Below are positions 11,046 to 36,849 of a DNA stretch of 64,000 nucleotides, one piece after another. The DNA lies in NCBI RefSeq assembly GCF_023634065.1, contig NZ_JALKCV010000013.1:62001-126000 (forward strand). Direction: 5' to 3'. Source of the DNA: Microbulbifer litoralis (GTDB taxonomy: Bacteria; Pseudomonadota; Gammaproteobacteria; Pseudomonadales; Cellvibrionaceae). Below the pieces are notes generated by a model, which saw only the letters and a program-made list of their open reading frames with translations, had not been told where the DNA came from and did not search any database. The position numbers were made by a program, and so were the translations under genes. Position 1 is the stretch's first letter, and every line of letters starts with the position of its first letter.

Positions 11046-11069
11046 CCTCCTCCCCCTCGGGGGAGGATG
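11046..11069. promoter_or_regulatory. putative MalT-like box pair upstream of the TonB receptor
   Basis: CCTCCTCCCC (reverse complement GGGGAGGAGG) at 11046-11055 faces GGGGAGGATG at 11060-11069. The first equals and the second matches 9 of 10 positions of the E. coli MalT box GGGGA(T/G)GAGG. The 18-mer CCCCCTCGGGGGAGGATG (11052-11069) recurs exactly at 36832-36849. The box ends 62 bases before the start codon. Binding is an inference. Confidence 0.5.
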
Positions 11070-11131
11070 TTATGGACAATGGGCGCTCATAGGATGCGAC
11101 TACTCACCATAACGATAAGTCCAGGGAGAAG

Positions 11132-13930
11132 ATGATGAGTCAATCCTATAAAGGCAAAGGGGTTTTCCGGCCCACTTTGCTGTCCGCTGCCGTAGCAGCC
11201 GTGAGTGTTTCATTGCCGGCTTTCGCTGCTGAAGAGGGCGTTTCCAACACCCTCGAAGAAGTAACTGTCACGGGCTTCCGCAAGAGTGTGATGGATGCCA
11301 TCGACACCAAGCGCGAAGCCACTGGTGTTGTCGAGGCTATATCCGCCGAGGATATCGGCAAGCTGCCGGACTCCTCCATCGCCGAATCGATCTCCCGCCT
11401 GCCGGGCCTGACCTCCCAGCGACTGGACGGCCGAGCGAGCCGCGTCAGCATCCGCGGCTTTGGTGAGAACGAGAGCGCCACTACCTTCAACGGCCGCGAA
11501 CAGGTCTCCATCGGCGACAACCGCGGCGTCGAGTTCGATCTGTATCCGTCCGAAATCATGAGCGGCGTGACGGTTCACAAGACGCCTACCGCCGATCTCG
11601 GTGCCGAGGGCATCGCCGGTGTGATCGATATGCAGTCGGTCAAGCCGCTGGATCGCGGCGAGCGCGTAATCAAGGTCAACAGCCAGTACGAAATGACCAG
11701 TTTCGACAAGCTGAACCCCGATGGTGAAGACAGTGGTCATCGCGCCACCCTGTCCTACATCGACCAGTTCGCCGACGACAGGATCGGTGTGGCGTTTGCC
11801 TACAACACCATGAGCTCGCCGAATCAGGAGGAGCGCTGGAATTCCTGGGGCTACCGCACCGATACGCCCGGACTGGAAGGCTACTCGGTATTGGGCGGTG
11901 CCAAGCCATTCGTGCGCTCTTCCGTACTGGATCGCGACAGTGCCATGCTGGTGCTCCAGGCCCAGCCCAATGACAGGTTGGACCTCACTTTCGATTCCCT
12001 CTACGTGGACTTCAACGATGAGAAGATCCTGCGCGGTATCGAAGTTCCCTTCGCCTGGGGGCAGGGTGAAGTAGTCGCCAACGAAATCGATGAAGCCACC
12101 GGTTTTGTGACCGACGGTACAGTGCTGGACCAACGCGTTGTGGTCCGCAACGATATGGAAAGCCGCGAGGCGAAGCTGAACTCCTTCGGCTTCAACGCCA
12201 AGTACGATGCCACCGACTCGCTGATTCTCGAGTTCGATGCCAGCCACTCCAAGGTCGAACGCAAAATCTGGAGTTTCGAGAGTTACTCCGGTACCGGCCG
12301 CGGCGACAGCCTGGGTGTGGGTGAGGATATCGGCTACACCTTCCGGTCCGGCAACACCGGGGCCCTGTTTACCCACCAGCTGGATTACAGCGACTGGGAC
12401 CTGATCAAGCTGGGCGGCCCGCTGAGCTGGGGTGCCAGCACCGCATTGAACAGCAAGTACGGCCTGGAAGAGGGGGACGTGCTCTATAACTCCGCCCAGG
12501 ACGGATTTATCAATGCACCGGAAATCGACGACGAACTGAGCACCTTCAAGCTCGCCGCCACGCAGATGGTGGATCTCGGTGTCGTCAACGAAATCTCCTT
12601 CGGGGTCTCCCACCGCGCGCGGGAAAAATCCAAAGACTCCAACGGCTACTACATGACCCTGGCCAATTTCGACGGTGAGTCCGAGGGGATGCTGACCGTG
12701 CCGGAAGAGTACCGCCTGGGTACCGTCTCCCTGGACTTTATCGGTATGGGGAACATGGTTGCGTATGACTCCGCCGGCCTGCTGGCTGACGGCTACTACG
12801 ACCTGCTCGATGAATCCCTCACCGGCATCCAGCACTTGACCAAATCCTTCACCGTGAGCGAGGACGTCACCGCGGCCTTCGCCCAGGCCGGCATCGACAC
12901 CGAGATCGCCGGCATGCCGCTGACCGGTAGCGTTGGTATGCGCTACGTCTACACCGACCAGCGCTCCGAAGGTTACGCCGGAACCGTCAATGCGGACGGG
13001 CTGGTTGAGGCCCTGGCTACCGATGTGAGCCACGACTACGATCACTGGCTGCCGAGTCTCAACCTGTCACTGGCGCTCGACGAGCAACAGACGGTGCGCT
13101 TCGGTGCCGCCAAGACCATCTCCCGCCCGCGCATGGACGAGATGAACGCGTCGCAGGAAGTGACCTACAGCCCTACCCCCAATGCAGACGGCTATTACTG
13201 GACCGTCACCGGCGGTAACCCGAACCTGGAGCCGAAGGAATCTCTGGGGCTGGATCTCACCTACGAAAACTACTTCAGTGATGAAGGCTACTTCTCCGTA
13301 GCTTACTTCTGGAAAGACCTGAAACAGTGGATTTTCGACGGCAACTACGAACTGGATATGAGCGGCGTTGCCGACCCGGCTACCGGCGAAGTGCCGGAGG
13401 AATCCCTGGCGTTTGCCAGCGGCAAGGTCAACGGCGGCGGTGGCACCCTGCAGGGCTATGAAGTGTCCGCCACCCTGCCATTCAACATGTTCAGCGAAGC
13501 ACTGGATGGTTTTGGTGTGATCGCCAGCCACACCGGTATCACCTCCGATGTGGAGGACCAGCACGGCAACGACTACGAGCTGCCGGGCCTGTCCGACCGC
13601 ATTGAGTCCCTGACCCTGTACTACGACAACTACGGTTTCTCCGCCCGCACCAGCGTGCGGAAGCGTTCCGACTTCAAGGGCGAAGTCTACGGTCTCGGTT
13701 TCGATACCACGCAGGTGGATGTACTGGGTGAGACCATTGTCGATGCGCAGCTCGGTTACGACTTTGGCGAGGCGGGCTTCACCGGCCTGGACGGCCTGTC
13801 GGTATACCTGCAAGGGACCAACCTGACCGATGAACCGTTCACGACCCTGAGCGGCGACAACGAACTGCAGGTTCGCGACTACCAGAGCTATGGCAAGACC
13901 TACCTGCTGGGCTTCAGCTACGAGTTCTAA
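11132..13930 (+). CDS. TonB-dependent outer-membrane receptor, probably for maltodextrins
   Basis: The 932-residue protein starts at tandem ATG codons (11132 or 11135) after AGGGAGAAG. It has a signal peptide ending at AFA-AEEG, a TonB-box-like stretch (EEVTVTG), a plug domain (about residues 45-165: SAEDIGKLPDSSIAESISRLPG, RVSIRGFGEN, SGVTVHKTPTADLGAEGIAGVIDM) and a C-terminal 22-strand barrel ending in ...YLLGFSYEF, the terminal aromatic residue typical of barrels. Receptors of this group (Caulobacter MalA type) import maltodextrins using TonB-ExbBD energy. The substrate call rests on its position among amylases. A strong terminator follows directly. Confidence 0.9.
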   Translation: MMSQSYKGKGVFRPTLLSAAVAAVSVSLPAFAAEEGVSNTLEEVTVTGFRKSVMDAIDTKREATGVVEAISAEDIGKLPDSSIAESISRLPGLTSQRLDGRASRVSIRGFGENESATTFNGREQVSIGDNRGVEFDLYPSEIMSGVTVHKTPTADLGAEGIAGVIDMQSVKPLDRGERVIKVNSQYEMTSFDKLNPDGEDSGHRATLSYIDQFADDRIGVAFAYNTMSSPNQEERWNSWGYRTDTPGLEGYSVLGGAKPFVRSSVLDRDSAMLVLQAQPNDRLDLTFDSLYVDFNDEKILRGIEVPFAWGQGEVVANEIDEATGFVTDGTVLDQRVVVRNDMESREAKLNSFGFNAKYDATDSLILEFDASHSKVERKIWSFESYSGTGRGDSLGVGEDIGYTFRSGNTGALFTHQLDYSDWDLIKLGGPLSWGASTALNSKYGLEEGDVLYNSAQDGFINAPEIDDELSTFKLAATQMVDLGVVNEISFGVSHRAREKSKDSNGYYMTLANFDGESEGMLTVPEEYRLGTVSLDFIGMGNMVAYDSAGLLADGYYDLLDESLTGIQHLTKSFTVSEDVTAAFAQAGIDTEIAGMPLTGSVGMRYVYTDQRSEGYAGTVNADGLVEALATDVSHDYDHWLPSLNLSLALDEQQTVRFGAAKTISRPRMDEMNASQEVTYSPTPNADGYYWTVTGGNPNLEPKESLGLDLTYENYFSDEGYFSVAYFWKDLKQWIFDGNYELDMSGVADPATGEVPEESLAFASGKVNGGGGTLQGYEVSATLPFNMFSEALDGFGVIASHTGITSDVEDQHGNDYELPGLSDRIESLTLYYDNYGFSARTSVRKRSDFKGEVYGLGFDTTQVDVLGETIVDAQLGYDFGEAGFTGLDGLSVYLQGTNLTDEPFTTLSGDNELQVRDYQSYGKTYLLGFSYEF

Positions 13931-13958
13931 TCCAGCCGGTTAGTGCCGCAATTGAAAG

Positions 13959-13992
13959 GCCCCTGCAATCCGGTATTGCAGGGGCTTTTTTT
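13959..13992 (+). terminator. rho-independent terminator after the TonB receptor gene
   Basis: Perfect 11-bp stem, arms GCCCCTGCAAT (13959-13969) and ATTGCAGGGGC (13975-13985), loop CCGGT, then seven T (13986-13992). It lies 29 bases after the stop codon. Confidence 0.95.
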
Positions 13993-14074
13993 GTCGATCG
14001 CGATAGGCCGTACAAGCGGGCAGACCGCTGTCGCGGACCAATCACTTCCGGCTTGTCGCGTTAAGGAGGGAGCC

Positions 14075-14578: not shown

Positions 14579-14603
14579 GCCCACAGGAGCCCGGGAGGAG
14601 GTA

Positions 14604-14651: not shown

Positions 14652-14663
14652 CGACAGACTGGA

Positions 14664-16520
14664 TCAGCGCTCCCGGTTTCTGACCAGGATCAGGCCATCC
14701 AGGGCGCCGATGGTTATACCGCTGGATTGGCGGTCGACAGGCTGCGCCTTTTTGTCCAACGCATTCTGCCAGCTTGAGTTTTCCAGCATCTCTGTCGAAA
14801 TGGTCTGCTGCCGGGGGGCATTGTTCAATATCACCAGAACCTCGTTGCCGCGATACTTGCGTCGATAGCCATAGAGCTGGCGCTTATCATCAATCAGCAC
14901 GGGCTTGAAATTGCCCAGCTGTAGCGCCGGGTTCTCGTTGCGGATCCGAATCAGTGCGCGGTAGTGAGACAGCAGGTCCGCGTTGACGGCCACTTTGTCG
15001 GGCGAGCGCTTGCCGCCATCGGGCAGGTAAATTTCGTCTTCGTACTCGATGTCGGGCCAGATCATCGGCTTGCGCGAGTCCGGGTCATTTGCGCCCCACA
15101 TGCCCACTTCATCACCGTAATAGATCATCGGAGCTCCCACGTAGGTCATCTGGAAGATGGTAAAGAGCTTCTGTAGCTGGATCTCATCCTGGTTGGGTTT
15201 CCTGACAGAGTAATCGGGGTTATTGCCAGCCTGCGACTTCGTGAAGTAATCGCCCCAGTCCCTGAAGTTGCCTATTCCGCGGTTGACGATGTGCGAGCCG
15301 ATCCGGTTGGAGTCGTGACTGCCAAACAGGTTTTGCACGACGTAGGCGACACCCTGCGGGTAGAGTCCCCTGAGCTCGGCCAGTTTCCGGTTGAACTCAC
15401 TGACACTGATATCGGTATCGGCGGGATTGAAGAAGAACTCCGCTGCGGCAAAGGCAAAGTTGTAATTCATCTCGCCGTCGAACTCGTCACCCTGGAAGTA
15501 GGGCTTTACCTTTTCGGGCTTATCGACGATCTCTGCGGTCAGGTAGGCCTGGGGATTGATCGATTTTACGTGGCTGCGCCAGGCTTTCCAGAAGTTGTGA
15601 TGCACATCGTAAGCGACGTCCAGCCGCCAGCCATCGATGCCGTGCTCGATACCCTCGCCTTTCGGATTCATCCAGCGCCTGGTTGCGGCAAATACGTACT
15701 CTCTCGGGCCTGCTACCAGCCCGTTTTCATCTTCCCTGAATTCGGGCAGGGACTCCACGCCAAACCAGCCGGAGTACTTGAATTTCGTCCCTTTCTGTTC
15801 ATTGCGGAAAGACTCCACCATGAACCAATCCCTGTAGGGAGACTTCTCCTGGTATTTGAGCAGGTTCTGGAAGGCGAAACTCTCGGTGCCCATATGATTG
15901 AACACACCGTCGAATATGATCCTGATACCGCGTTTATGGGCTTCGTCGATCAGCTCCAGTGCCAGCTCATCGGCGCTCGTCCAGACCCAGGTCGAGGGAT
16001 CCAGCGGGTTTTCGCCGGCCATCAGTTTCCGGTCGCCCTTGGGGTCCGGCCCGAAATTGGGGTCGATATGGTGGTAGCTGGCGCCGTCATACTTGTGCAG
16101 CGAGGGGGAGTCGAAGACCGGATTCAGGTAAATCGCATTGATACCGAGGTCGCTCACGTAGTCGAGCTGATCGATGATCCCCTGGAGGTCGCCGCCGTAA
16201 CGGCGCCGCAGCAGGTGTTTCCAGAGCTCCGGCTCGCCGTTGGCTTTTTCGTAGGGCTGCAGCCGATACCAGTCGCTGCCCCAGGGGTGAATCTGCCATT
16301 CCCTGGGCGGCTCCTGCGGATCGGCGCCGAGTATATCCTTCATCTTTGGGTCGTTGGAGGAATCGCCATTGCGGAAACGCTCGGGAAAGATCTGGTACCA
16401 GACCGCCCGCTTTGCCCATTGCGGTACGAACTCATCGCCGTCTTGGGCGCTGGAAAGCTGGGTACTGCCGAGCATGGCAGCGGACAGGGTTATCGCAGCA
16501 AGCCGTTTTATATTCTTCAT
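14664..16520 (-). CDS. periplasmic GH13 alpha-amylase family enzyme (neopullulanase/maltodextrin hydrolase-like)
   Basis: The 618-residue protein has a signal peptide (MKNIKRLAAITLSAAMLGSTQLSSA-Q). The catalytic barrel starts with WAKRAVWYQIFPERFRNGD. A short domain-B insertion precedes IIFDGVFNHMG, GIDGWRLDVAYD with nucleophile Asp301, LTAEI with Glu330, and FGSHDSNR with Asp403; a C-terminal beta domain follows. The block order and the inserted DPQEPPREWQIHPWGSDWY region resemble the cyclomaltodextrinase/neopullulanase group, but no starch-binding N-domain is present. It should cut alpha-1,4 bonds in maltodextrins or pullulan fragments in the periplasm. The gene is monocistronic and convergent with the DUF1993 gene. 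Confidence 0.88.
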   Translation of the reverse strand: MKNIKRLAAITLSAAMLGSTQLSSAQDGDEFVPQWAKRAVWYQIFPERFRNGDSSNDPKMKDILGADPQEPPREWQIHPWGSDWYRLQPYEKANGEPELWKHLLRRRYGGDLQGIIDQLDYVSDLGINAIYLNPVFDSPSLHKYDGASYHHIDPNFGPDPKGDRKLMAGENPLDPSTWVWTSADELALELIDEAHKRGIRIIFDGVFNHMGTESFAFQNLLKYQEKSPYRDWFMVESFRNEQKGTKFKYSGWFGVESLPEFREDENGLVAGPREYVFAATRRWMNPKGEGIEHGIDGWRLDVAYDVHHNFWKAWRSHVKSINPQAYLTAEIVDKPEKVKPYFQGDEFDGEMNYNFAFAAAEFFFNPADTDISVSEFNRKLAELRGLYPQGVAYVVQNLFGSHDSNRIGSHIVNRGIGNFRDWGDYFTKSQAGNNPDYSVRKPNQDEIQLQKLFTIFQMTYVGAPMIYYGDEVGMWGANDPDSRKPMIWPDIEYEDEIYLPDGGKRSPDKVAVNADLLSHYRALIRIRNENPALQLGNFKPVLIDDKRQLYGYRRKYRGNEVLVILNNAPRQQTISTEMLENSSWQNALDKKAQPVDRQSSGITIGALDGLILVRNRER

Positions 16521-16885
16521 CTTTAACTTCTCTTCTGTGGGCCTGTGTCAATGCAAAATAAAACCTGGAAGGGATCTGCGCAGGAGCTGGTCGCAGGCGG
16601 CAACCGGGTATGAAGCGGGGCTGTGGCTCTTGCGATAACAGCTTCCAAGGGTCTCGGTGTAATAACCTGCCAGTATCCACCAGAAGGTCGGCTGTTGCGT
16701 CAGCCCCATACGGGGAGTAGGGAGAGCCGCCGGGTGGACCGGCGGTTAAAAGGAGGGCAGGTAAATCAGCGCTGTTCGACTGAGTCCACTTTTTGAGTCA
16801 GACGCTGGCTCTGAACTTTGTCACTATCGGGATCGCCCGTTTCGACCGATGCTTTGGGGCTTGGTTGCCCCCGCAACCGGGGTTT
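16521..16885. other. intergenic region upstream of the GH13 gene
   Basis: The 365 bases contain no supported gene. GGGGAGTAGG at 16712-16721 differs from the MalT box consensus at one position but stands alone. Inverted repeat GGTTGC/GCAACC at 16863-16878 lies next to the end of the FG-GAP gene; its adjacent T-run is on the wrong strand for a terminator of that gene. Confidence 0.5.
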
Positions 16886-21552: not shown

Positions 21553-21583
21553 GTTGGAACAATATTGATGACGGTTGCCCGGT

Positions 21584-22573: not shown

Positions 22574-22598
22574 GCTACGCCCCCGTCCCCGGAGGATG
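22574..22598. promoter_or_regulatory. putative MalT-like box upstream of the malS-like gene
   Basis: GCTACGCCCC (22574-22583) is followed by a degenerate inverted copy ending in GGAGGATG (22591-22598). The same start GCTACGCCCC and a GGATG end occur before the chloride-type amylase (24382-24405). The end lies 66 bases before the start codon, as at the MFS gene. Confidence 0.4.
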
Positions 22599-22664
22599 TG
22601 GGCGGTGCTGCCAATGGTAGAGTGGGATGATCGAAATACCGTTGATGTCTAGCGAGAGAATAAA

Positions 22665-24317
22665 ATGAAACGTATCGCCGCCGGCCTGATTGCCCTGTTG
22701 GGGCTCAACGCCTGTACCGACCCGAGCGTCGCGGAACCACAGACCAGCGACAACGCCTGGTCCAGCGCCACCGTCTATTTCCTGCTGCCGGACCGTTTCC
22801 GCAATGGCGATCCCGACAACGACCTCAGCTATGGCCGCAAGCGCGACGGGGCCCGGCTGCGCAACTTTGCCGGCGGCGACCTGCGCGGTGTGATCGGCAA
22901 GCTCGAGGAGGGCTACTTCAACGACCTGGGGGTGGACGCCCTGTGGATGTCGCCGGTCTACCGGCAGATCGAGGGCGCCACCGACGAGGGCACCGGGCGC
23001 ACCTACGCCTACCACGGCTACTGGCCCCGGGACTGGACTGCCGTCGACCGCAATTTCGGTACCGAGGCGGATCTGGCCGAGTTGATCGATAGCGCACACC
23101 GCCGGGGGATCCGTGTACTGCTGGATGTGGTCATCAACCACACCGGGCCGGTCACGGAAAAGGATCCGCTGTGGCCGCAGTCCTGGGTCAGGCCCGGGCC
23201 CGTCTGCGACTGGTCCGGATTCGCCGGCACCGTGGCCTGCACGCTGGTCGAGAACCTGCCGGATATCCGCACCGAGCGCGAGGAGCCGGTGGCATTGCCG
23301 CCGCAGCTGGTTGAACAGTGGCGCCGGGAAGGGCGCCTGGCGCAGGAGCAGGCGGAGCTGGATGCCTTTTTCGAGCGCACCGGTTATCCGCGCACGCCGA
23401 GATACTACCTGATCAAGTGGGCGACCGACTGGGTGCGGGAATACGGTGTGGACGGTTTCCGTGTGGACACCACCAAGCATGTGGAGCCGGAGGCCTGGGC
23501 GCAACTCAAAAAAGAGGCGGATACGGCACTGGCGCAGTGGCGGGCCGAAAACCCCGAGCGGAAACTCGGCGACCGCGACTTTTACATGGTGGGTGAAGTC
23601 TACGGCTACGGTATCAATGATTTCGGTGCGAGCGAGGGGCGGGACTACGATTTCGGCGATCGCAAAGTGGATTTTTTCGACTACGGTTTCGACAGCCTGA
23701 TCAATTTCGACCTGGTGCAGAGCGCCGACGGGGACATGGAGACAATTTTCTCCAGCTATTCCGACAGCCTGCACGGCGGGGCCCTCGATGGCGTTGGCGT
23801 GCTCAACTACCTGGCGTCCCACGACGATATGCATTCCTTCGACCGCGAGCGCCAACGCGCGCGAGAGGCGGCGATCAAGCTGCTGTTGGCCCCGGGGGCC
23901 GCACAGATCTATTACGGCGATGAACTGGGCCGCACCCTGACCGCGTCCGCCAACGGCGACGCCCAGTTGCGCAGCCCGATGAACTGGGCGGACCTGGACG
24001 AGCCGCAAACCCGCGAGTTGCTGTCCCACTGGCAGAAGCTGGGCCGCTTCCGGCGCGCGCATACCGCAGTCGGGGCCGGTGTCCACAGTCAACTGGCCGA
24101 CAAGCCCTACACCTTTGCCCGCACCCTGGACGGCTCGCCCTCGGTGGTGGTCGCGGTCGACAGCGGGCGGGGACAGAAGTCCATCACAGTCGGCGACATT
24201 TTTGCCGAAGGCACAAAGCTGCAGGATTTCTATTCCGGCAAAACGGCGTTGGTCGAGGGCGGTCGCGTGAGCCTGGATACACCCTCCGGGCTGGTGCTGC
24301 TGGCGCCGGCGGAATAG
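22665..24317 (+). CDS. periplasmic GH13 alpha-amylase lipoprotein (MalS-like)
   Basis: The 550-residue protein carries a lipobox (LGLNAC, Cys17), so it is a lipoprotein. The barrel begins SSATVYFLLPDRFRNGDPDND. Catalytic blocks are LLDVVINHTG, GVDGFRVDTTKHVEPEAW with nucleophile Asp268, MVGEVYGYG with Glu311 and LASHDDMHS with Asp387. The sequence GFRVDTTKHVE and the long insertion between residues 165 and 245 resemble periplasmic alpha-amylase MalS (GH13 subfamily 19), which trims long maltodextrins from the reducing end. The malS call is by motif resemblance only. Monocistronic, with a terminator at 24340-24366. Confidence 0.88.
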   Translation: MKRIAAGLIALLGLNACTDPSVAEPQTSDNAWSSATVYFLLPDRFRNGDPDNDLSYGRKRDGARLRNFAGGDLRGVIGKLEEGYFNDLGVDALWMSPVYRQIEGATDEGTGRTYAYHGYWPRDWTAVDRNFGTEADLAELIDSAHRRGIRVLLDVVINHTGPVTEKDPLWPQSWVRPGPVCDWSGFAGTVACTLVENLPDIRTEREEPVALPPQLVEQWRREGRLAQEQAELDAFFERTGYPRTPRYYLIKWATDWVREYGVDGFRVDTTKHVEPEAWAQLKKEADTALAQWRAENPERKLGDRDFYMVGEVYGYGINDFGASEGRDYDFGDRKVDFFDYGFDSLINFDLVQSADGDMETIFSSYSDSLHGGALDGVGVLNYLASHDDMHSFDRERQRAREAAIKLLLAPGAAQIYYGDELGRTLTASANGDAQLRSPMNWADLDEPQTRELLSHWQKLGRFRRAHTAVGAGVHSQLADKPYTFARTLDGSPSVVVAVDSGRGQKSITVGDIFAEGTKLQDFYSGKTALVEGGRVSLDTPSGLVLLAPAE

Positions 24318-24381: not shown

Positions 24382-24405
24382 GCTACGCCCCACAGTGGGT
24401 GGATG
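24382..24405. promoter_or_regulatory. putative MalT-like box upstream of the chloride-type amylase
   Basis: GCTACGCCCCACAGTGGGTGGATG has a GC-rich inverted character (CCCAC/GTGGG) and ends in GGTGGATG like the other starch-gene boxes. It lies 99 bases before the start codon, further than at the other genes. Weaker match than 11046-11069. Confidence 0.35.
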
Positions 24406-24504: not shown

Positions 24505-26499
24505 ATGAAACCACAGACCCAGACCAGCAACTGGTTTGCGGGCGCGGCCATGGTGCTCGGCGCGCTCGCCAGTAACAATCTTTCCGCCGGCACAGCATTT
24601 GTGCACCTGTTCGAATGGCGTTGGAATGATATCGCCAGCGAGTGTGAAAACTTCCTCGGTCCCAAGGGCTACGATGCAGTACAGATCTCGCCGCCGCAGG
24701 AACATATCAGCCTCGACACCTGGTGGGCCCGCTACCAGCCGGTAACCTACACCAACCTCACCAGTCGCAGCGGTACCGAGTCGGAGCTGGCCAGCATGAT
24801 CCAGCGTTGCCACGCCGCCGGCGTCAAGGTGTACGCGGATGCGGTGATCAATCACACCGCCGCCTGGAACAGCGGCGGCACCGGCTGGGGCGGCACGCCC
24901 TGGAGCCTGACCAACCACCCGGAATTCTCCCCCGCGGATTATCACTCCAACTGCGATATCGACAACTATGCGGATGCCGGCAATGTCTGGAATTGCCGCC
25001 TCAGCGGACTGCCGGACCTGGATACCGGTTCCGGTTATGTGCGCGACACCCTGGCGGCCTACTTCAGCAAGCTGTCGAATATGGGCGTGGACGGATTCCG
25101 TATCGATGCGGTCAAGCATATGAGCCCCGCCGACCTCGGTGCCATTCTCGGCGCCGCCGGCAACCCCTGGGTTTTCTCCGAGGTGATCGGCGCGGCCGGG
25201 GAGGCGGCGGAAATCCAACCCGCAAACTACACCCACCTGGGGCGGGTTACCGAGTTCAAGTACGGCACCGATGTGGCCAGCAATTTCAACGGCCAGATCA
25301 GGAACCTGGAGACCATCGGCGAGTCCTGGGGACTGCTGCCCTCGTCCGACGCCGTGCAATTTATCGATAACCACGACCGCGAGCGCGGCCACGGCGGCGG
25401 GGGCAATTTCACCTATAAGGATGGAGCCAAATACAACCTGGCGAATGTATTCATGCTGGCGCATCCCTACGGCTACCCGAAAGTGATGTCCGGCTACGCG
25501 TTTACCGACACCGATATCGGCCCGCCCGCCAGCGGCCCGCAGGACTGCGGCAACAGCGCCTGGATCTGCCAGCACCGCTGGGGCAACATCGCCAACATGG
25601 TCGGTTTTCGCAACCATGTGGACGGCACCCCGCTGCAGAACTGGTGGGACAACGGCGATAACCAGATCGCTTTCAGCCGCGGGCAGAAGGGGTTTGTCGT
25701 GATCAACAACGAAAGCGGCGGCCTGGAGCAGGACCTGTACACCGGCCTGCCCGCCGGGGACTACTGCAATGTCCTGGCGGGAGACGAGCCTTGCAGCGGC
25801 GATGTGATCAGCGTGGATGCCGATGGCTACGCACAGTTCAGTGTGGCCGCCAACAGCGCCGCGGCGATTCACGGCGGCGCCCCCGCAGCGCCCTGCAGCG
25901 ACTGCATCGCGCAGAATTTCCCGCAGCTCCATTTCCGCGGTACGCCCAATAACTGGGGTGCCGCAGCCATGGAACTGGTGGCGGACAACACCTGGCGTAC
26001 GACGGTGGTGTTTGACGGCAGCAGCGAACAGCGTTTCAAGTTTGATGTGGAGGGCGACTGGAGCTGGAATTACGGCGACAGCGACGCCGACGGTGTCCTG
26101 GAGCAGGGCGGTGGCGATATCCACACACCGGTCAGCGGTCGCTATCGCGTGGAGGTCAACGACCAGACCCTGGCCTACAGCCTGACCTGCCTGTCGGATT
26201 GCGGCGCCCTGCAATCCAACCTGCCGTCACTCTATTTTCGCGGCACAGCCAACAGCTGGGGCAGCACGGCGATGACACTGGTGGCGGACAATACCTGGCA
26301 AGCAACGGTGTCCTTCGACGGCAGTACCGATCAACGTTTCAAGGTGGACGTCCACGGCGACTGGAGTGAAAACTACGGCGACAACGACGCGGACGGCACC
26401 CTGGAGCAGACCGGTGCCGATATCTACACGGATGTCAGCGGCAGTTATCGTGTCACCGTAAACGACGCGGCCATGAGCTACTCGATCGAGGCCCAATAG
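24505..26499 (+). CDS. secreted chloride-type GH13 alpha-amylase with two C-terminal starch-binding-like modules
   Basis: The 664-residue protein has a signal peptide ending near LSA-GTAF. The catalytic part (about 30-455) follows the Pseudoalteromonas haloplanktis amylase closely: TAFVHLFEWRWNDIA, GFRIDAVKHM with nucleophile Asp201, FSEVIG with Glu226, FIDNHDRERGHGG with Asp291, and YPKVMSGY. By analogy the chloride ligands are Arg199, Asn289 and Lys326, all present, so chloride activation is likely. Two tandem modules (about 472-560 and 573-664) share RGT.N.WG and DNTW patterns and about half their residues; they resemble starch-binding beta-sandwiches, but I cannot assign a CBM family. It should start attack on starch outside the cell or in the periplasm. 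Confidence 0.92.
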   Translation: MKPQTQTSNWFAGAAMVLGALASNNLSAGTAFVHLFEWRWNDIASECENFLGPKGYDAVQISPPQEHISLDTWWARYQPVTYTNLTSRSGTESELASMIQRCHAAGVKVYADAVINHTAAWNSGGTGWGGTPWSLTNHPEFSPADYHSNCDIDNYADAGNVWNCRLSGLPDLDTGSGYVRDTLAAYFSKLSNMGVDGFRIDAVKHMSPADLGAILGAAGNPWVFSEVIGAAGEAAEIQPANYTHLGRVTEFKYGTDVASNFNGQIRNLETIGESWGLLPSSDAVQFIDNHDRERGHGGGGNFTYKDGAKYNLANVFMLAHPYGYPKVMSGYAFTDTDIGPPASGPQDCGNSAWICQHRWGNIANMVGFRNHVDGTPLQNWWDNGDNQIAFSRGQKGFVVINNESGGLEQDLYTGLPAGDYCNVLAGDEPCSGDVISVDADGYAQFSVAANSAAAIHGGAPAAPCSDCIAQNFPQLHFRGTPNNWGAAAMELVADNTWRTTVVFDGSSEQRFKFDVEGDWSWNYGDSDADGVLEQGGGDIHTPVSGRYRVEVNDQTLAYSLTCLSDCGALQSNLPSLYFRGTANSWGSTAMTLVADNTWQATVSFDGSTDQRFKVDVHGDWSENYGDNDADGTLEQTGADIYTDVSGSYRVTVNDAAMSYSIEAQ

Positions 26500-26765: not shown

Positions 26766-27734
26766 ATGCGGTGGTATCGGAAAACCGACAGAAAGGGATC
26801 CCGCAAAACCTCGCGGGTATCACTGAGGGCGCGGATACTGGGTGGCCTGTTACTGGTGCTGCTGGCCACAGGGGCCAGCGCCGGCCTGCTGGACCTGCTC
26901 AGAAATACCAAGGTGGACATCAATACAGGCTTGCTCGACCTGCGTCTCGAAAACCTGGTGTTGGACCTGGGTCTTCTGCTGGGCCTGATCGAACTGGAAA
27001 TAGACGGCAACCAGGTCCTTGCCATTCTGTCGCTGCCCGGCGATATCGAAACCGACCTGCTGATCAGCTTCGACCGGGTGCTCGGGCTCACCGAGCAGAA
27101 CATCGGCCTCTCCGCGCGCGAGTTCGACCCCGTCGACCCGGATCTGCTGCAGCGCCTGCCGCCGGGCGCCCACGTCGTGCCCCAGGCCGATTTTCCGATG
27201 ATGGTGCAGATTGAACCGGTCGGCGGCCTGGCCTTTTCCGATACCGTGGAACTGGAACTCCACACCCACAACCTCGAGTACCAGCCGGGCACCAACCTGC
27301 GCCTGTTCGCCGCTTCCGGCGGTGAGGACTTTCGCGATATCACCACCTACGTGGGCTCGGGCAGTTACCGCTGCCGCGGCCGGCGGGGCAAGTTTTCCGA
27401 ATTCCTGGTGGTCGAGGACACCCGCGATACCGATGTGGTGATCGCCGGCAAGTTCGATTTCCTGCAGGACAAACTGCACGAATTCCGCGGCCAGATGCCC
27501 AGCTGGATCTACTGGAGCCTCTACCTGAAAGTGGCCCACGCGAAGGGCGCCTGGGCCTTTGACAACGACGCCGGGGCGGTGTGGAAACTGAAATCCGCCA
27601 TCGCCACCGTCGAGGGTTACGGCGGCTACTGGATTCCCAATACCTGGCGCTCCAGCCGCGATATCGACAATGTCGCCGGCGAACTCAGTGCCGCGGCGCA
27701 AACCCTGATCTTCAGCCTGGAGCTCCCCGACTGA
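26766..27734 (+). CDS. unknown secreted protein coupled to a TPR protein
   Basis: The 322-residue product starts at an ATG after GAGGGACGGG. An N-terminal basic stretch precedes a hydrophobic segment (LLLVLLATGASAGLL, about residues 26-41), a likely signal peptide with cleavage near ASA-G. Residues 44-95 are rich in Leu/Asp repeats (NTGLLDLRLENLVLDLGLLLGLIELEIDG), followed by a mixed globular part with two Cys-free beta-type stretches and an Arg-rich YRCRGRRGKF motif holding the only obvious Cys. I do not recognise the family with certainty; it may correspond to a DUF found in marine gammaproteobacteria. Its stop overlaps the start of the next gene in TGATG, so the two are probably translationally coupled. 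Confidence 0.7.
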   Translation: MRWYRKTDRKGSRKTSRVSLRARILGGLLLVLLATGASAGLLDLLRNTKVDINTGLLDLRLENLVLDLGLLLGLIELEIDGNQVLAILSLPGDIETDLLISFDRVLGLTEQNIGLSAREFDPVDPDLLQRLPPGAHVVPQADFPMMVQIEPVGGLAFSDTVELELHTHNLEYQPGTNLRLFAASGGEDFRDITTYVGSGSYRCRGRRGKFSEFLVVEDTRDTDVVIAGKFDFLQDKLHEFRGQMPSWIYWSLYLKVAHAKGAWAFDNDAGAVWKLKSAIATVEGYGGYWIPNTWRSSRDIDNVAGELSAAAQTLIFSLELPD

Positions 27735-30321: not shown

Positions 30322-32169
30322 TTACTGCGTGACGCGGAAAATATGGCTGGCCCGCGGTGCCAGCTCCAGCGCGATGGAGCCACTGGTCCCTTCCACATGC
30401 AACTGCGCATCGGTGTCGCCGAGCTGGTCAACCAGCGGGTAGTTGCCGTCGGCCAGTTGCCACTGTTGCATCAGTGCCTGCGGTAGCTGCAGTTCGGCCG
30501 GGCTGCTGTCGGCGGCGAAGTTGGCTACCACCAGCAGCTTCTCGTCCCCATCCCAGCGTGCAAACGCGAATTGCCGATCGCCGTAACCTTCCAGCGCCGC
30601 GTAGTTGTCACTGCGCAGCGCGGCGTTGCCGGCGGAGAAGTTCATCAACCGCCGGTAGAATTCCCGCAGTCGCTGTTCATCCGCAGTGGACTCTCCCTGC
30701 AGCCAGCGGCGCACACTGGGGACCGACCAGTAATCAAAAATGGTGGTGCGGCTGGCCTTGCCGAAACCGGCGTCCTCGCTCGCCGGCTCGCCCAGTTCCT
30801 GGCCGAAGTACACCAGCGTTGGCGCGGCGGATACGGTGGCGGAGACGAGCATGGCCGGCTTGCCGGCCTCGGCGTCGCCGGCGAATTCCGGGCTGGCGAT
30901 GCGCTGCTCGTCGTGGTTTTCCATAAAGTGCAGCATATGCGGGGCGATATCCTCGAGGCTCCGCTGGATCTCGGCGACCTTGTCGGTATCGCCCTTGCCT
31001 TCCATTACTGCGCGAATCGCGTCGTAGGTGCCTACCTTGTCGTACAGGTAGTCCATCTTGCCGAGGTGGATATAGTCGCGGTAGCGCTCCGGGGTATAGA
31101 TCTCGGCCAGCAGCAACGTGTCCGGCTTCTCCATCTTGATGGAGGAATTCAGGTAACTCCAGAATTCCACCGGCACCATGCCGGCCATATCGTAACGGAA
31201 ACCGTCGACGCCGAAGTCGAGCCAGTAGTGGGTGATATCGCGGAATTTTTCCCAGGAATCCGGCACATCCCTGTCGGCCCAGAATTCCGCGTGGGCTTTG
31301 TAGTCCTTCTGTGCAAACTCTGCGGACAGCTGCGGGAAATCCTCACGGCCATCCGGGCGTACGCCGAAATTGATCTTGACTGTCTCGTACCAGTCGTCAA
31401 TGGCCGGCTGTGCCGCGCGGGCGCCGTTGCCGGTCCACTTGGCCGGGCGCTCTTCGAACCGGCCGTCCGCCAACGGGTGCGGTTCGCCCCCCAGCGGCCG
31501 GTAGTCATCGCTCTCGGGCACCCGGAAGTCCTCGCCCACCACATAGTAGAAATTGTTGTCGCGGTCGTAGGTGACCGAGGTGTCGTCGCCGGCACCAAAA
31601 TCCCCCACGCCGTCCGGTTTGTCGAGGGATTCGTAAGCGCGGGCCACGTGGTTGGGCACGATATCGATGATGACCTTGAGCCCCTGCTCGTGGCTGCGGT
31701 CAATCAGCGCGCGGAACTCGTCCAGACGCTTTGCCGGATCTTCCGCCAGGTCCGGGTTGACGCTGTAGTAATCCTTGATCGCGTAGGGAGAGCCGGCGCG
31801 GCCCTTGACCACATCCGGGTCGTCATTGCCGATGCCGTACTGTGTGTAATCGCCGACCAGTGCGTGGTGCAGCGAGCCGGTATACCAGATGTAATTGGCT
31901 CCCAGCTCGCGGATCTGCTGCAGCACTTGCGGCGTAAAATCGTTGAACTTGCCCGTGCCGTTTTCGTCGATGGTGCCCCAGGGTTTGTTGGTGGGGTTGG
32001 TGTTGCCGAACAGGCGCGGCAGGGCCTGGTAGATCACCGGTTTTTCCACGGGCGCCGCGCTATTGTCACTTGCGGAGTCGGGGCCCCGCGGGTCCGGGGT
32101 GGATTCTTCGCTGCAGCCGCCGGCGATGGCGAGCGTGGCGGCGGCGATCAGGGATTGGATTTTCTTCAT
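30322..32169 (-). CDS. GH13 alpha-amylase family lipoprotein
   Basis: The 615-residue protein has a lipobox (LAIAGGC, Cys19). The barrel starts PVIYQALPRLFGNTN. Catalytic blocks are VIIDIVPNHVA, VDGFRYDMAGMVPVEFW with nucleophile Asp327, LLAEIYTP with Glu356 and MENHDEQR with Asp420; a large insertion (about residues 185-290) separates the third and fourth beta strands. The order GNTNPTNKPWGTI near the N-terminus is unlike classical endo-amylases and may indicate a maltogenic or exo-acting specificity, not determined. It is the last gene of a minus-strand operon: 34809-36734, 32244-34679, then this one, with 74 bases before it. Confidence 0.85.
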   Translation of the reverse strand: MKKIQSLIAAATLAIAGGCSEESTPDPRGPDSASDNSAAPVEKPVIYQALPRLFGNTNPTNKPWGTIDENGTGKFNDFTPQVLQQIRELGANYIWYTGSLHHALVGDYTQYGIGNDDPDVVKGRAGSPYAIKDYYSVNPDLAEDPAKRLDEFRALIDRSHEQGLKVIIDIVPNHVARAYESLDKPDGVGDFGAGDDTSVTYDRDNNFYYVVGEDFRVPESDDYRPLGGEPHPLADGRFEERPAKWTGNGARAAQPAIDDWYETVKINFGVRPDGREDFPQLSAEFAQKDYKAHAEFWADRDVPDSWEKFRDITHYWLDFGVDGFRYDMAGMVPVEFWSYLNSSIKMEKPDTLLLAEIYTPERYRDYIHLGKMDYLYDKVGTYDAIRAVMEGKGDTDKVAEIQRSLEDIAPHMLHFMENHDEQRIASPEFAGDAEAGKPAMLVSATVSAAPTLVYFGQELGEPASEDAGFGKASRTTIFDYWSVPSVRRWLQGESTADEQRLREFYRRLMNFSAGNAALRSDNYAALEGYGDRQFAFARWDGDEKLLVVANFAADSSPAELQLPQALMQQWQLADGNYPLVDQLGDTDAQLHVEGTSGSIALELAPRASHIFRVTQ

Positions 32170-32243: not shown

Positions 32244-34679
32244 CTAGTATTTGACGGCCAGTCCGAGTGGGTTGCCACTCCAATCGAATTTGATGCGCAA
32301 CTGTCCGGTGGACTTGTCCAGCCAGGCGCCTCGGGCGGCTTTGTCGAAATCGCTTTCGCGCGCCAGTATCCGGAATGGCTGCCCGTCGACAGCAACGCGC
32401 GCCGGCGCCGTCTTCCAGTTGTGGATGTTCAGGTGGATACGGCGCTGTTCCGGTGCGCCGTGGTAGCCGTCGCCCTCGCTGGTAAAACGGAAGTCGATGC
32501 CGTCGGCGCTGCGCTCGGCGTTGAACTCGAGCATCTGGTATTCGCCGCGCCCGTAGGCGTCGACGGTCTGGCCGTCGTCCTCGTAGACGGAGCCGCTGGA
32601 ACGGGTTGCCGTCGGGTGGGCGTAGTAGTCCAGGTTCAGTGTTTTGCTGGAGTAGTCGCGGGTATTGTCGAGGTCGTCGACGGTGGGGACAAAGGCGCCG
32701 GCGCGTACCAGTACCGGGATAGTCTCCAGCTCCACATCCACCTGCGCCGCGTCGCCGCTGTACTGCTCGTCGCTCCAGTAATCGAACCAGACACCACCGG
32801 GCAGTTTCACTTCCACCCGATCGACGCCGGCGTCGGTCACCGGTGCCACCAGGAAGGCGTCGCCCCACAGGTAGGCCTCCCTGTAATCGATCAGGTCGGT
32901 ATCCTTCTCGTTTTCAAAAAACAATGGACGCATCAGCGGCATGCCGGTGCGGCTGTTTTCGAATGCCAGGGTGTAGTTGTAGGGCAGCAGGCGGTAGCGC
33001 AGTTTGACGTAGTCGCGCACGATGTCGCGGGTCTTGCGGTCGTGGAAGACCGGTTCCGGCGCTATCTCTTCCTGCGCGTGCGGGCGGTAGACCGGCTGGA
33101 AGACGCCGTACTGCAGCCAGCGGATATACAGTTCGCGATCGAATTCCTCGCCGCCGGCAAAGCCGCCCAGGTCGGAGTGGGTGTAGCCGAATCCCAGCAG
33201 GCCCATCTGTAGCGACAATTCCACCTGCGGTTTGAGGCCGCCCCAGGAGCGGCTCACATCGCCGGTCCAGGGAATCATGCCGTAACGCTGGGAGCCGGCG
33301 AAACCGGCGCGCATCATGATAAACGGGCGCCGCCCGGGATAGTTTTCCGTCTGGCGTTCGAACAGCAGTTGTGCCCAGCGGTGGCCGTAGGCGTTGTGGA
33401 CTTCGTCCGCTGTGCCGATGGCGTGCACTGTGTCCGCCGGGTGCACTTCCGGTTCGCCCAGGTCACCCCACCAGCCGGCGACGCCCTGCTGGTAGAGGCC
33501 GTGGTAGATATTCCAGAACCAGTCGCGGCCGTCTTTGGAGAAGACATCCACCAGGCCGGTATTGCCAAAAAAGAAGTCGAAGCGCTTGGGATCGCCGGCC
33601 AGGTTTTTCGCCAGCGCGTTTGCGGCCACAGCGTCGTCCCAGCGTTTGGAGCTGGTCAGCACAAAGGGCTCGGTGACGAGAATGGTCTGGATACCGCGCT
33701 CCTTCAGGTCGGCCAGCATTTTCTCCGGCTCGGGGAAGGCGTTTCTGTCCCAGGCCAGGTTGCCCATGTGGCCCTGGACATCCGGGCCGAACCAGTAGAG
33801 GTCCAGCACCAGTGCATCCAGCGGGAAATCCTCATCGGCGAATTTCTCCACCGTATCCCGCACTTCTTTTTCTGTGTGGTAGCCAAAGCGGGAGGCGAAG
33901 TTGCCCAGTGCCCAGCGCGGCGGCAGCGGCTGGCGGCCGCTTACGTCGACATAGTGTTCGATCAGCTGTGGATAGCTATCCCCGGCGACGACGATGTAGC
34001 TGGTGCGGCCGGCCGCCGCCTCGAACTGCAACACGTCCTCCTCGCTGGCACCCAGGTCCATGGCACCGCTGGCGCTGTTGTCGAACAGCAGCAGGTACTT
34101 GTTGCTGCTCATGACTGCCGGCAGGCCGAAGTACATCTGGCTGGACTCGGTGGTGTAGCCGTAGTGGGCCTTGTTGTAGAGCGGCAGGCGCTGGCCGCGG
34201 CGGTCCATGCCCAGCACCCGCTCGCCGCCGCCGAGCAGTTTTTCCTGTGGCTGTAGCGAGAAGCGGAAACCGCGCAGGGTTTCGGTAGCGAAAAAACCGC
34301 TTTCCTCGCCGACAAGCAGCCGGCCGCGGTGCAGGTACTCGATGCGGAACGGGGATTTGTGGATCAGGGCGGTGAGGCCGGGCAGGCTGTAGGCCAGCCT
34401 GTCCCGCCCCTCGGTGAGTTTGGCCGCGACGGTGCGTTGGCGCTCACTGTCGATGGCAAAGGAGGGCAGCTGTTTCAGGCCATCGCGCCGATAGTGGACT
34501 TCCAGCGCTGCATCGTTGAGGGGGGTCAGGGTAACGCTGCCGTCGCTGAGCGCGATGGTCAGTGTGTCCGAGTCCAGTTGATGGCTCCGGTACTCGCGCG
34601 TTTCGCCGGCGCTGGCGAGGCCGGCGTAGAACAGGAAAACAAGCGCGAAACCGCGCAGCAGGGTATTTCGGTTTGTCAT
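32244..34679 (-). CDS. GH31 alpha-glucosidase (periplasmic or outer-membrane)
   Basis: The 811-residue protein has a signal peptide (MTNRNTLLRGFALVFLFYAGLASAG). The GH31 barrel begins about residue 245 (GRQPLPPRWALGNFASRFGYHTEKEV). The nucleophile is Asp406 in WWGDLGEPE and the acid/base is Asp474 in PWTGDVSRSWGG. A C-terminal beta domain with a DYWSDEQY stretch ends the protein. GH31 enzymes release glucose or isomaltose-type units from the non-reducing ends of maltodextrins; alpha-xylosidase specificity also exists in the family and cannot be excluded by motif. In context it most likely finishes starch digestion in the periplasm. It lies between two GH13 genes in one minus-strand operon. 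Confidence 0.9.
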   Translation of the reverse strand: MTNRNTLLRGFALVFLFYAGLASAGETREYRSHQLDSDTLTIALSDGSVTLTPLNDAALEVHYRRDGLKQLPSFAIDSERQRTVAAKLTEGRDRLAYSLPGLTALIHKSPFRIEYLHRGRLLVGEESGFFATETLRGFRFSLQPQEKLLGGGERVLGMDRRGQRLPLYNKAHYGYTTESSQMYFGLPAVMSSNKYLLLFDNSASGAMDLGASEEDVLQFEAAAGRTSYIVVAGDSYPQLIEHYVDVSGRQPLPPRWALGNFASRFGYHTEKEVRDTVEKFADEDFPLDALVLDLYWFGPDVQGHMGNLAWDRNAFPEPEKMLADLKERGIQTILVTEPFVLTSSKRWDDAVAANALAKNLAGDPKRFDFFFGNTGLVDVFSKDGRDWFWNIYHGLYQQGVAGWWGDLGEPEVHPADTVHAIGTADEVHNAYGHRWAQLLFERQTENYPGRRPFIMMRAGFAGSQRYGMIPWTGDVSRSWGGLKPQVELSLQMGLLGFGYTHSDLGGFAGGEEFDRELYIRWLQYGVFQPVYRPHAQEEIAPEPVFHDRKTRDIVRDYVKLRYRLLPYNYTLAFENSRTGMPLMRPLFFENEKDTDLIDYREAYLWGDAFLVAPVTDAGVDRVEVKLPGGVWFDYWSDEQYSGDAAQVDVELETIPVLVRAGAFVPTVDDLDNTRDYSSKTLNLDYYAHPTATRSSGSVYEDDGQTVDAYGRGEYQMLEFNAERSADGIDFRFTSEGDGYHGAPEQRRIHLNIHNWKTAPARVAVDGQPFRILARESDFDKAARGAWLDKSTGQLRIKFDWSGNPLGLAVKY

Positions 34680-34715
34680 CGCTCTATTACATCTCGATTA
34701 TCTGGTCGGTGTCCC

Positions 34716-34784
34716 GTAGGAGCCTGCTTTGCAGGCGAATAGGGTCGATGCCCGTTCCGGTTCGCCTGCGGGGCAGGCTCCTAC
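34716..34784. repeat. inverted pair of REP-like elements
   Basis: GTAGGAGCCTGCTTTGCAGG... (34716-34739) and its inverted partner (34761-34784) match at 22 of 24 positions and each form a stem with GCCTGC/GCAGGC. They resemble the Pseudomonas-type REP sequence beginning GTAGGAGC and ending GCGAA. They lie between the GH13 (cyclomaltodextrinase-like) gene and the GH31 gene of the operon. Confidence 0.75.
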
Positions 34785-34808
34785 AGCCGTTGCGCAGCGA
34801 CCTGCCGA

Positions 34809-36734
34809 TCAATCCAGTTCCAGCACCAGCACATCCCGCGCCGGGATCTCCAACTGATCCAGTGTGTGGCGTTTGCCAGTCAGGACGTCGACGCCCGCGG
34901 TGTTGTCACCGAGCGCTTCCGCAAAGCGTGCCGCCGGCAGCCGATAGGGTTCGTCGCCTTTGTTGATCGCCACCATCACCGTGTCGTTATCGTTGTAGCG
35001 GAAATACACATAGGTGTTTTCCCGCGGTGAGAAGTGTTTCAGCTTGCCGCTGTGAATCACCGGTGCCTGCCGGCGCCAGCGGAACAGTCTGCGCACGGTT
35101 TCCTGCGCCTGCTGTTGGCGCTGGTCCAGGCCCTTGCCGCTAAACGCATCGCGCTCGTCGCCGGTCCAGCCGCCGGGGAAGTCGCTGCGCACGATGCCGT
35201 CGTTGCGTTCTTTTGGGCTCTCCATCAGTACTTCGTCGCCGTAGAAAAACTGCGGGATGCCGCGCATCGTGGCCAGGTAGGCGACCGCCATCTTGAACAG
35301 CGCGGGGTCGTCATTGAGCTGGCTGAACAGGCGGCTGGTGTCGTGGTTGCCGCCGAAGATCACCAGCCGCTGCGGCTGCGGATAGAGGAAGTCGTTGGCC
35401 AGTGATTCGTACAGGGTGGTGAGGCCGCTGTCCCAGCTGTCCTCCCGGGCGAGACCTTCGCGCAACGCATAGTGCAGCGGGAAGTCCATCATGCTCTTCA
35501 GGCGGCCGCCGCTGACCTGTGCGTCTTCGCCGCGCTGCCAGTGGGCCACCAGCGCCGGGTTGCGGGTCCACTCCTCGCCGACGATATTGAAATCCGGGTA
35601 CTCCCGGTGGATGCGCGCCGCCCACTGCTGCAGGAAGTCGCCGTCGGAATAGGCATAGGTGTCGGCGCGAATGCCGGACAGGCCGGCGTACTCGATCCAC
35701 CAGACGCTGTTCTGGACCAGGTAGTTGGCCAGCAGCGGATTGCGCTGGTTCAGGTCTGGCATCGAGTCCACGAACCAGCCCTGCACGAAGGCCGCGCGGT
35801 CGCTGTCGCTCGCGTGCGGGTCCACCAGTGTGGTGCGGCTGTGGTTGGTGAGTGTGTACTCGCCCTCGTCGGTGCCGTCGCCGTTCAGCCAGCTCGCCGC
35901 GGGCAGGTCGCGCATCCACCAGTGGCCGCTGCCGATATGGTTGAGCACCACATCCTGGATCACGCCGATATCCCGCTCGCGCGCCGCGCCGACGAATTCG
36001 CGAAATTCGTCGTTGCTGCCGAAGCGCGGGTCGATGCGGTAGAAGTCGGTGGCGGAGTAGCCGTGGTAGGAGTAGGCCGACTGGTCGTTTTCCACCAGCG
36101 GGTTGGGCCATACCTGGGTGAAGCCCATGTCGGCGATATAGTCCAGGTGTTCGCGCATGCCGGCGATATCGCCGCCGTGGCGGCCGCCGGGGTTGTCGCG
36201 GTCGGCTCCCTCGCGGGTGTCGGCGGTGCTGTCGTTGGCGGTGTCGCCATTGGCGAAGCGGTCCGGGGTGATCAGGTAGATGGCGTCGCTGCTGTCGAAG
36301 CCGCGGCGCCCGGCGGAGCCCGCGGCCCGCGCTTTCAGTGTGTAGTCGATCACCGCCTGTGTCTCGCCGCCGTCCTGCAGGGCGATTTCCAGCGTGCCGG
36401 GCTCGGTTTCCGGTGCCAGCCGCAGGTTGATGAACAGGTAGTTGTCGTTGTCGGTGGTCTCGCTGCCCAGCAGGGTCACGCCGGGGTAGTCGAGTCGCGG
36501 TTCGAGACCGGCGATATCGCGGCCGTGAACCATCAGTTGCAGTTCTTCCGCCGCCATATCCGTCCACCAGAACGGCGGTTCGACGCGCTCGACGGTGTCG
36601 GCGCTGGCGGGGAGGGCCAGGCAGGCGAGCAAGGCGATGAGTAAGTACTTGGTTACCTGGCGGGTATGGTAGAATCTGACGCCAGTGCGGGTCGTGGCCT
36701 GGCGGGCGGAGTGATATCGGATGCTCGGAATCAT
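34809..36734 (-). CDS. GH13 cyclomaltodextrinase/neopullulanase-like enzyme with N-terminal beta domain
   Basis: The 641-residue protein starts at the only good ATG; its signal peptide has a long basic n-region and ends at ALPASA-DT. An N-terminal immunoglobulin-like domain (about residues 48-145, VEPPFWWTDMAAEELQLMVHG) is typical of cyclomaltodextrinases. The barrel shows DAIYLITPDRFANGD, VIQDVVLNHIGSGHWWM, SGIRADTYAYSDG with nucleophile Asp358, NIVGEEW with Glu387 and GGNHDTSR with Asp465. The family cleaves cyclodextrins, pullulan or short maltodextrins. First gene of the minus-strand operon with GH31 and a GH13 lipoprotein. It is divergent from the MFS carrier, sharing one control region. 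Confidence 0.9.
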   Translation of the reverse strand: MIPSIRYHSARQATTRTGVRFYHTRQVTKYLLIALLACLALPASADTVERVEPPFWWTDMAAEELQLMVHGRDIAGLEPRLDYPGVTLLGSETTDNDNYLFINLRLAPETEPGTLEIALQDGGETQAVIDYTLKARAAGSAGRRGFDSSDAIYLITPDRFANGDTANDSTADTREGADRDNPGGRHGGDIAGMREHLDYIADMGFTQVWPNPLVENDQSAYSYHGYSATDFYRIDPRFGSNDEFREFVGAARERDIGVIQDVVLNHIGSGHWWMRDLPAASWLNGDGTDEGEYTLTNHSRTTLVDPHASDSDRAAFVQGWFVDSMPDLNQRNPLLANYLVQNSVWWIEYAGLSGIRADTYAYSDGDFLQQWAARIHREYPDFNIVGEEWTRNPALVAHWQRGEDAQVSGGRLKSMMDFPLHYALREGLAREDSWDSGLTTLYESLANDFLYPQPQRLVIFGGNHDTSRLFSQLNDDPALFKMAVAYLATMRGIPQFFYGDEVLMESPKERNDGIVRSDFPGGWTGDERDAFSGKGLDQRQQQAQETVRRLFRWRRQAPVIHSGKLKHFSPRENTYVYFRYNDNDTVMVAINKGDEPYRLPAARFAEALGDNTAGVDVLTGKRHTLDQLEIPARDVLVLELD

Positions 36735-36771
36735 GGTGCTGACCGGGTCGTTATTGTGGGGTCGATCGAAT

Positions 36772-36788
36772 ACTGCGCCGGGCGCAGT
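36772..36788. promoter_or_regulatory. palindrome in the GH13/MFS divergent control region
   Basis: ACTGCGC (36772-36778) and GCGCAGT (36782-36788) enclose CGG. It lies 37 bases upstream of the minus-strand start. It is a candidate operator only; no second copy was noticed in the window. Confidence 0.3.
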
Positions 36789-36825
36789 TGGGCCAGCTTT
36801 ATGGTATTTCGGTGACAGCCGCCCG

Positions 36826-36849
36826 CATCCACCCCCTCGGGGGAGGATG
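36826..36849. promoter_or_regulatory. putative MalT-like box pair in the divergent GH13/MFS promoter region
   Basis: CATCCACCCC (reverse complement GGGGTGGATG) faces GGGGAGGATG. The 18-mer CCCCCTCGGGGGAGGATG (36832-36849) is identical to that before the TonB receptor. Its plus-strand end lies 66 bases before the MFS start; its minus-strand end lies 91 bases before the GH13 start. Confidence 0.5.

Follow-up and report, generated by a model that had tools for sequence, protein, structure and literature searches.

A conserved inverted repeat upstream of starch genes in Microbulbifer as a predicted operator of the MalT regulon

Why does the same inverted box stand before one starch gene after another in a single stretch of DNA, and which regulator would read it? 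The question is raised by a 64,000-nucleotide (nt) stretch of Microbulbifer litoralis (contig NZ_JALKCV010000013.1, positions 62,001 to 126,000), hereafter the window, in which an initial annotation had noticed a recurrent box upstream of starch genes and had likened it to the MalT box of E. coli. That observation is confirmed: the recurrent box is a 23-24 bp dyad, CTNCNCCCC-N5/6-GGGNGGATG, and sequence comparisons make it very likely that this dyad is an operator of the MalT regulon. MalT is a model STAND protein, and to our knowledge what has been learnt of the arrangement of its boxes comes chiefly from E. coli and Klebsiella.

The 18-mer CCCCCTCGGGGGAGGATG occurs with the same letters at 11052-11069 and 36832-36849, as annotated, and at up to three mismatches it was seen four times in the window versus 0.21 times in shuffles. 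The shorter elements are present as well, namely the 8-mers GGAGGATG at 22591 and GGTGGATG at 24398, and GCTACGCCCC, which is common to the boxes of a malS-like gene (22574) and of an amylase gene here named amyC (24382). By themselves the two 8-mers are common, being found at 7 and 10 places, respectively, on both strands, and GCTACGCCCC at up to one mismatch was seen three times, below the 8.46 expected by chance. The signal is the whole dyad, which at up to one mismatch gave six matches at five places (11047, 24383, 7946, 36826/36827, and 22575), compared with 0.05 sites per simulated window in 20 Markov simulations. Distances of 62, 66, and 66 nt from the box end to the start codon are correct for the TonB-dependent receptor (ATG 11132), the malS-like gene (ATG 22665), and a major facilitator superfamily (MFS) carrier (ATG 36916); for amyC (ATG 24505) the gap is 99 nt. 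The matches of 9/10 and 10/10 to the E. coli MalT consensus GGGGA(T/G)GAGG are also right, the 10/10 copies sitting on the minus strand (7945, 11046).

A malT-like gene had been reported as missing from the window, and this agrees with what was scanned, where the single TPR_MalT match (27581-30232) lies below the cut-off (42.1 < 45). A search of the genome for a MalT-type LuxR/STAND regulator returned a malT ortholog outside the window, at C1:792129-794852. Its product scored 867.7 bits against NF003420 (cut-off 537) over profile positions 1-898 of 903, and a TPR_MalT search of the 5.0 Mb genome gave C1:793473-794480 with 323.9 bits. The single MalT chain holds a STAND ATPase (AAA_22, 32.3 bits), TPR_MalT (319.9 bits), and a LuxR-type helix-turn-helix (HTH) domain (GerE, 61.4 bits), and it matched the PDB entries 8bob and 1hz4 (MalT). 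An alignment of 910 columns with E. coli MalT shows 36% identity, the recognition region being nearly identical, with VAxxTIKTHIRxLYQKL common to both proteins. Five named loci encode relatives of this MalT; two of them are close to it (93 and 88% identical), and both belong to Microbulbifer. In one relative, an apparent remnant of a second malT (G017:C1:3585728-3586042; the C-terminal end, 78% identical, with stops) lies about 2 kb past the intact gene.

The position of the dyad relative to the putative promoters is largely fixed. Of the 40 distinct non-malT sites of the relatives, 33 have a TANNNT hexamer starting 18-21 nt past the box, compared with 0-3 such hexamers in four-wide offset intervals touching neither offsets 18-21 nor the copy at offset 24. 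The seven distinct MFS sites carry no TANNNT at offset 18-21, and ACAAT-type hexamers are found by eye at about that place. The proximal box would thus occupy the -35 position of a sigma-70 promoter, as in an E. coli-type promoter, a placement deduced from the -10-like hexamer. The malT loci show two further fixed distances. An upstream site at up to three mismatches is present in 16 of 30 malT loci, that of this genome included, and in all 16 it is followed exactly 33 nt later by CATAAT or TACAAT. Past the malT stop codon, a site is found in 23 of 30 loci, with CATACT exactly 20 nt after it in 23/23, whereas the chance level from the same scan in malT coding bodies is 0.02 per 220 nt. This downstream site is present in all 23 loci that have a GH13 gene there (78-100% identical) and in none of the 7 that show no such gene.

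The distribution of the motif over the genome of M. litoralis was assessed with a sequence-only model built from 34 distinct sites of the relatives, none of them from this genome. These sites had been picked for preceding starch or malT genes (with loci L063 and L075 dropped), and 15 sites came in from malT flanks on the basis of their score. Of the 2467 first-look candidates, 150 were scored; three loci fell below E = 0.06, and all are starch loci: window 11046, window 36826, and C1:794914, the last lying between malT and a GH13 gene, which is read as alpha-glucosidase-type. Among the candidates scored, the next-best match was a weak operator-like palindrome at C1:361383 (L089 1501-1523; E = 1.5), which is flanked by an mpl-like frame (by eye) and a pyrophosphate (PPi)-phosphofructokinase gene and could link glycolysis to the MalT regulon. 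The CTACG form of the dyad, allowed two mismatches, gave 11 matches in this genome versus 1 for a control pattern, and the only two perfect ones lie in the malT promoter (C1:792022) and in the amyC promoter (window 24383). Another dyad, with two mismatches and TAGCTT at offset 20, lies at C19:56666, 59 nt upstream of a maltose O-acetyltransferase-like gene (206 bits, where the family cut-off is 314); this gene, too, is probably preceded by a box. Several weaker candidates were set aside: GGGGGAGGATG at C11:13882 lies within a prephenate dehydrogenase/EPSP synthase gene and was taken as chance, as were the C2, C3, C5, C7, C8, and C17 matches among the 11 of the CTACG form, which overlap open frames, and a weak site at C3:25439 has no tie to starch. 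The reading as a starch-regulon operator of MalT type, put forward in the initial annotation, is supported on each side, as the motif is not randomly spread, a MalT regulator exists in the genome, and no spread of the palindrome over many unrelated genes was seen.

Conservation across the genus points the same way. Among 48 Microbulbifer genomes, 47 carry malT and 47 match a longer dyad pattern at up to two mismatches; the sole genome without either (G033) is 80% complete. Dyad loci were returned for 29 of the 47 relatives and malT loci for 30. When one locus per relative was taken, 27 of the 29 longer-pattern matches stood beside a homolog of the TonB receptor, the MFS carrier, or malT (11, 9, and 7 loci, respectively), the homologs being 32% to 89% identical. 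The CTACG pattern, allowed one mismatch, matched in 44 of the 48 genomes (85 matches versus 4 for the control), and a starch or malT gene lay downstream in 27 of 29 relatives; in five of these loci (L101, L102, L116, L120, and L121) the amyC match is confined to the C-terminal part. Throughout the relatives' dyads the half-sites are constant while the spacer varies.

Across the family, operator and regulator largely occur together. The NF003420 cut-off is exceeded in 49 of 144 family genomes (47 Microbulbifer, G054, and G113), and the exact operator occurs in 38 (36 Microbulbifer with malT, G054, and G085), the control pattern being found in 0/144. Thus 37 of 49 genomes with malT carry the exact operator versus 1 of 95 without malT (Fisher P ~1e-22, a value that overstates the independence of the genomes), and the single match in the latter group, from G085, falls inside an open frame and was discarded. 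G054, a member of a different genus, carries sites between malT and GH13 (two mismatches), before an MFS gene (one), and before a TonB gene (none); upstream of its own malT no site was found. In a scan of 390 genomes of the order, 10 matched, namely 8 of 10 Microbulbifer and 2 others, with exact matches in G188 and G310; by a rough estimate, the scans outside the genus should together yield about three hits by chance.

A number of observations weigh against assigning the dyad to MalT. The relatives' model reported none of the malT, malS, and amyC sites of this genome up to E = 10, and 14 of 30 malT loci have no upstream site. G113, with MalT over the cut-off, has no site in 19 kb around malT. 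The exact operator is lacking in 11 of 47 malT-bearing Microbulbifer genomes, although each of the 47 has a longer-pattern match at up to two mismatches. The control of that longer pattern is not clean: 159 matches (palindromes counted twice) stand against 25 for the reversed pattern, and 21 of these 25 come from two genomes with long C/G runs (G023 and G041). Four of 58 loci (L063, L075, L108, and L112) are not tied to a starch gene; one of them (L063) holds the sole longer-pattern match of its genome, G012, another (L108) is cut by a contig end and was misoriented in the analysis, and L112 is without a match. The amyC homolog of a further locus (L127) begins 557 nt past the box, and the genomes of one genus are not independent.

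Could the dyad be the site of another starch regulator? Two candidates can be named, a second MalT-like LuxR protein, encoded on contig C12, and a hypothetical LacI-type repressor like MalR of Shewanella, which runs a similar TonB-based system (PMC2996990). The C12 protein (L014 1180-3987) is a MalT-like LuxR/STAND paralog whose gene adjoins a TonB receptor-like frame, and it scores 347.8 bits against NF003420, under the cut-off of 537. Paralogs of this kind (290-363 bits) were found in 12 of 48 Microbulbifer genomes, with five candidates per genome scored, as opposed to malT in 47 of 48. Furthermore, with either G or T accepted at position 9, the half-site of 43 of 52 sites agrees with the E. 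coli MalT box at 9 or 10 of 10 positions (the 52 sites being 46 of 58 relatives' loci plus 6 own, after untied loci and some near copies were removed by hand), the site is carried by malT and its neighbour gene, and it is placed where an activator would sit. We therefore consider control by another regulator improbable.

Still less probable is that the palindromes represent a dispersed repeat or RNA hairpins of the terminator or attenuator kind. Near-perfect, GC-rich dyads are indeed seen in the TonB and MFS copies, and the hairpin annotated at 7941-7972 exists, its copy at 7946-7970 being terminator-like on both strands and its flanking genes divergently oriented. The other copies, however, lie upstream of a predicted -10 and so would not be transcribed from that promoter; moreover, the spacer varies while the half-sites are fixed, and genome-wide matches are few and mostly at starch genes. 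The terminator reading was rejected for all copies except 7946. Chance similarity in a GC-rich genome, to which the commonness of the single 8-mers would lend itself, is hardly credible in view of the shuffles, the simulation, the reversed-pattern controls, and the conservation at the same genes across the genus.

How would MalT act at this dyad? By analogy to E. coli, MalT would be activated by maltotriose and ATP; the activated protein, which combines a STAND ATPase with a DNA-binding domain of LuxR type, would multimerise and bind CTNCNCCCC-N5/6-GGGNGGATG. Since the dyad at most non-malT sites lies 18-21 nt before TANNNT, at the place of the -35 element, MalT should replace the -35 contact and would recruit sigma-70 RNA polymerase (class II activation), thereby turning on the genes for the starch TonB receptor and the sugar carrier as well as those for amylases and glucosidases. 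At malT itself the dyad stands 33 nt before the -10 hexamer, and malT is therefore probably under its own control, with another geometry, in the loci where the dyad is present.

The predicted regulon resembles that of E. coli and Klebsiella in its orthologous activator, in the place of the box relative to the -10 hexamer, and in the malS-like and maltodextrin enzyme genes among the predicted targets. The E. coli malE promoter holds GGGGCGTAGG; in the malT-promoter site of this genome, the left half (CCTACGCCCC) is its reverse complement. Unlike in E. coli, the predicted targets include a TonB receptor and an MFS carrier, and about half of the malT loci examined have a site at malT itself. The arrangement of the boxes differs as well. 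E. coli promoters reportedly use MalT boxes in direct repeat, as Vidal-Ingigliardi is said to have described in 1991, whereas the Microbulbifer dyad is one inverted repeat. A second box in the same direction (8/10, within 60 nt upstream) was seen at 2 of the 52 sites versus 7 of 52 in a control region, and one in the opposite direction at 7 versus 6, so two boxes in direct repeat, as in E. coli, are not what is observed here. An inverted pair is found in E. coli malP (CCTAATCCCCCGCAGGATGAGG), where it is closer-spaced than in the Microbulbifer dyad.

The nearest known match among the accounts consulted is the palindromic MalT motif of Actinoplanes sp. SE50/110, TCATCC-5nt-GGATGA, which overlaps the -35 region at 34.4 +/- 1.0 nt from the start site of MalT-dependent genes (PMC7567727). 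Both motifs are inverted repeats overlapping -35, that of Microbulbifer on the strength of the -10-like hexamer. They differ in the half-sites and in core spacing, the Microbulbifer cores being set farther apart (the TonB copy at 11046-11069 reads TCCTCC-N8-GGAGGA), and also in their genes, as maltose genes are reported not to be activated by MalT in Actinoplanes (PMC7567727), while the sites here are at starch genes. In Shewanella, a LacI-type MalR controls the TonB-based maltodextrin system (PMC2996990); it is alike in placing a TonB receptor, a symporter, and starch enzymes under one regulator and differs in regulator family, and 'MalT' there names a carrier. Further reports describe multimerisation and cooperative binding of E. 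coli MalT (PMC4381067, PMC10427625) and contrast LuxR-family proteins that bind inverted repeats with MalT (PMC9628970). The palindromic single-dyad arrangement is thus a new form of a known MalT system, a palindromic MalT motif being already known from Actinoplanes. In a literature search judged by titles, no account of MalT in Microbulbifer was found, 'malt' there probably meaning mostly grain.

We lean slightly towards a further proposal. One symmetric dyad, held at a fixed distance from the -10 hexamer and without a direct-repeat array, would make up the full MalT operator of Microbulbifer and of one neighbouring genus, so that one dimer-type site would suffice for a STAND activator and a 13 bp shift would turn the same dyad to malT feedback. 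If this is true, the single-dyad operator would be a minimal system for the old question of MalT box arrangement, and its genus-wide form with fixed spacing would offer a clean test of how the MalT multimer is seated on DNA. The predicted regulon also yields a regulator and a target list for starch use in marine polysaccharide degraders.

Within the window, the predicted operator of the TonB-dependent receptor (11132..13930, plus strand; TIGR01782), a putative maltodextrin receptor, spans 11046..11069 (plus strand) with TAGGAT at 11090-11095 (offset 20) and an E of 1.3e-4 in the relatives' model; the dyad lies upstream of TonB homologs in 11 relatives. A predicted two-way operator at 36826..36849 (E 0.0014 and 0.055) separates the MFS sugar carrier (36916..38442, plus strand) from a minus-strand group whose first gene encodes a GH13 cyclomaltodextrinase-like enzyme (34809..36734) and the others a GH31 enzyme (32244..34679) and a GH13 enzyme (30322..32169). 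On its GH13/GH31 side (minus) the TANNNT hexamer TACCAT is at offset 19, and on its MFS side (plus) AAAGAT, which is not TANNNT, is found by eye at offset 20. The malS-like GH13 alpha-amylase (22665..24317, plus strand) is preceded by a predicted operator of the N6 form at 22575..22598 (plus strand) with TAGAGT at 22618-22623 (offset 19), and dyads are also found upstream of malS homologs in relatives. For amyC, a GH13 alpha-amylase with an Alpha-amylase_C domain (24505..26499, plus strand), the predicted operator at 24383..24405 (plus strand) is followed at offset 21 by TAAGCT, a weak -10 that fails a stricter -10 test. A candidate operator with two mismatches at 16698..16720 (minus strand), with a -10-like hexamer at offset 20, stands upstream of a GH13 cyclomaltodextrinase-like gene (14664..16520, minus strand); chance alone would give about one site of this kind per window. 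Also within the starch locus (26766-30232), a DUF6689 gene is followed by the TPR-repeat protein with the weak TPR_MalT match (27581-30232), which was rejected as a regulator for its score and for showing no HTH match.

The copy at 7946..7968 (plus strand; one mismatch, TAGATT at offset 20) is a candidate operator of a pair of genes (8097-10565) that encode a fatty acid (FA)-hydroxylase and a LamB-family porin (9261..10565, plus strand) and adjoin the TonB receptor. The FA-hydroxylase gene gave no match in the 47 other Microbulbifer genomes (E up to 1e-60). Being found in 1 of 48 genomes, it looks like a recent arrival. Another gene of the window (6285-7535) is without a Pfam or NCBIfam match; in 11 of the 29 loci from relatives, its homolog and the starch TonB receptor gene are divergently oriented and flank the operator.

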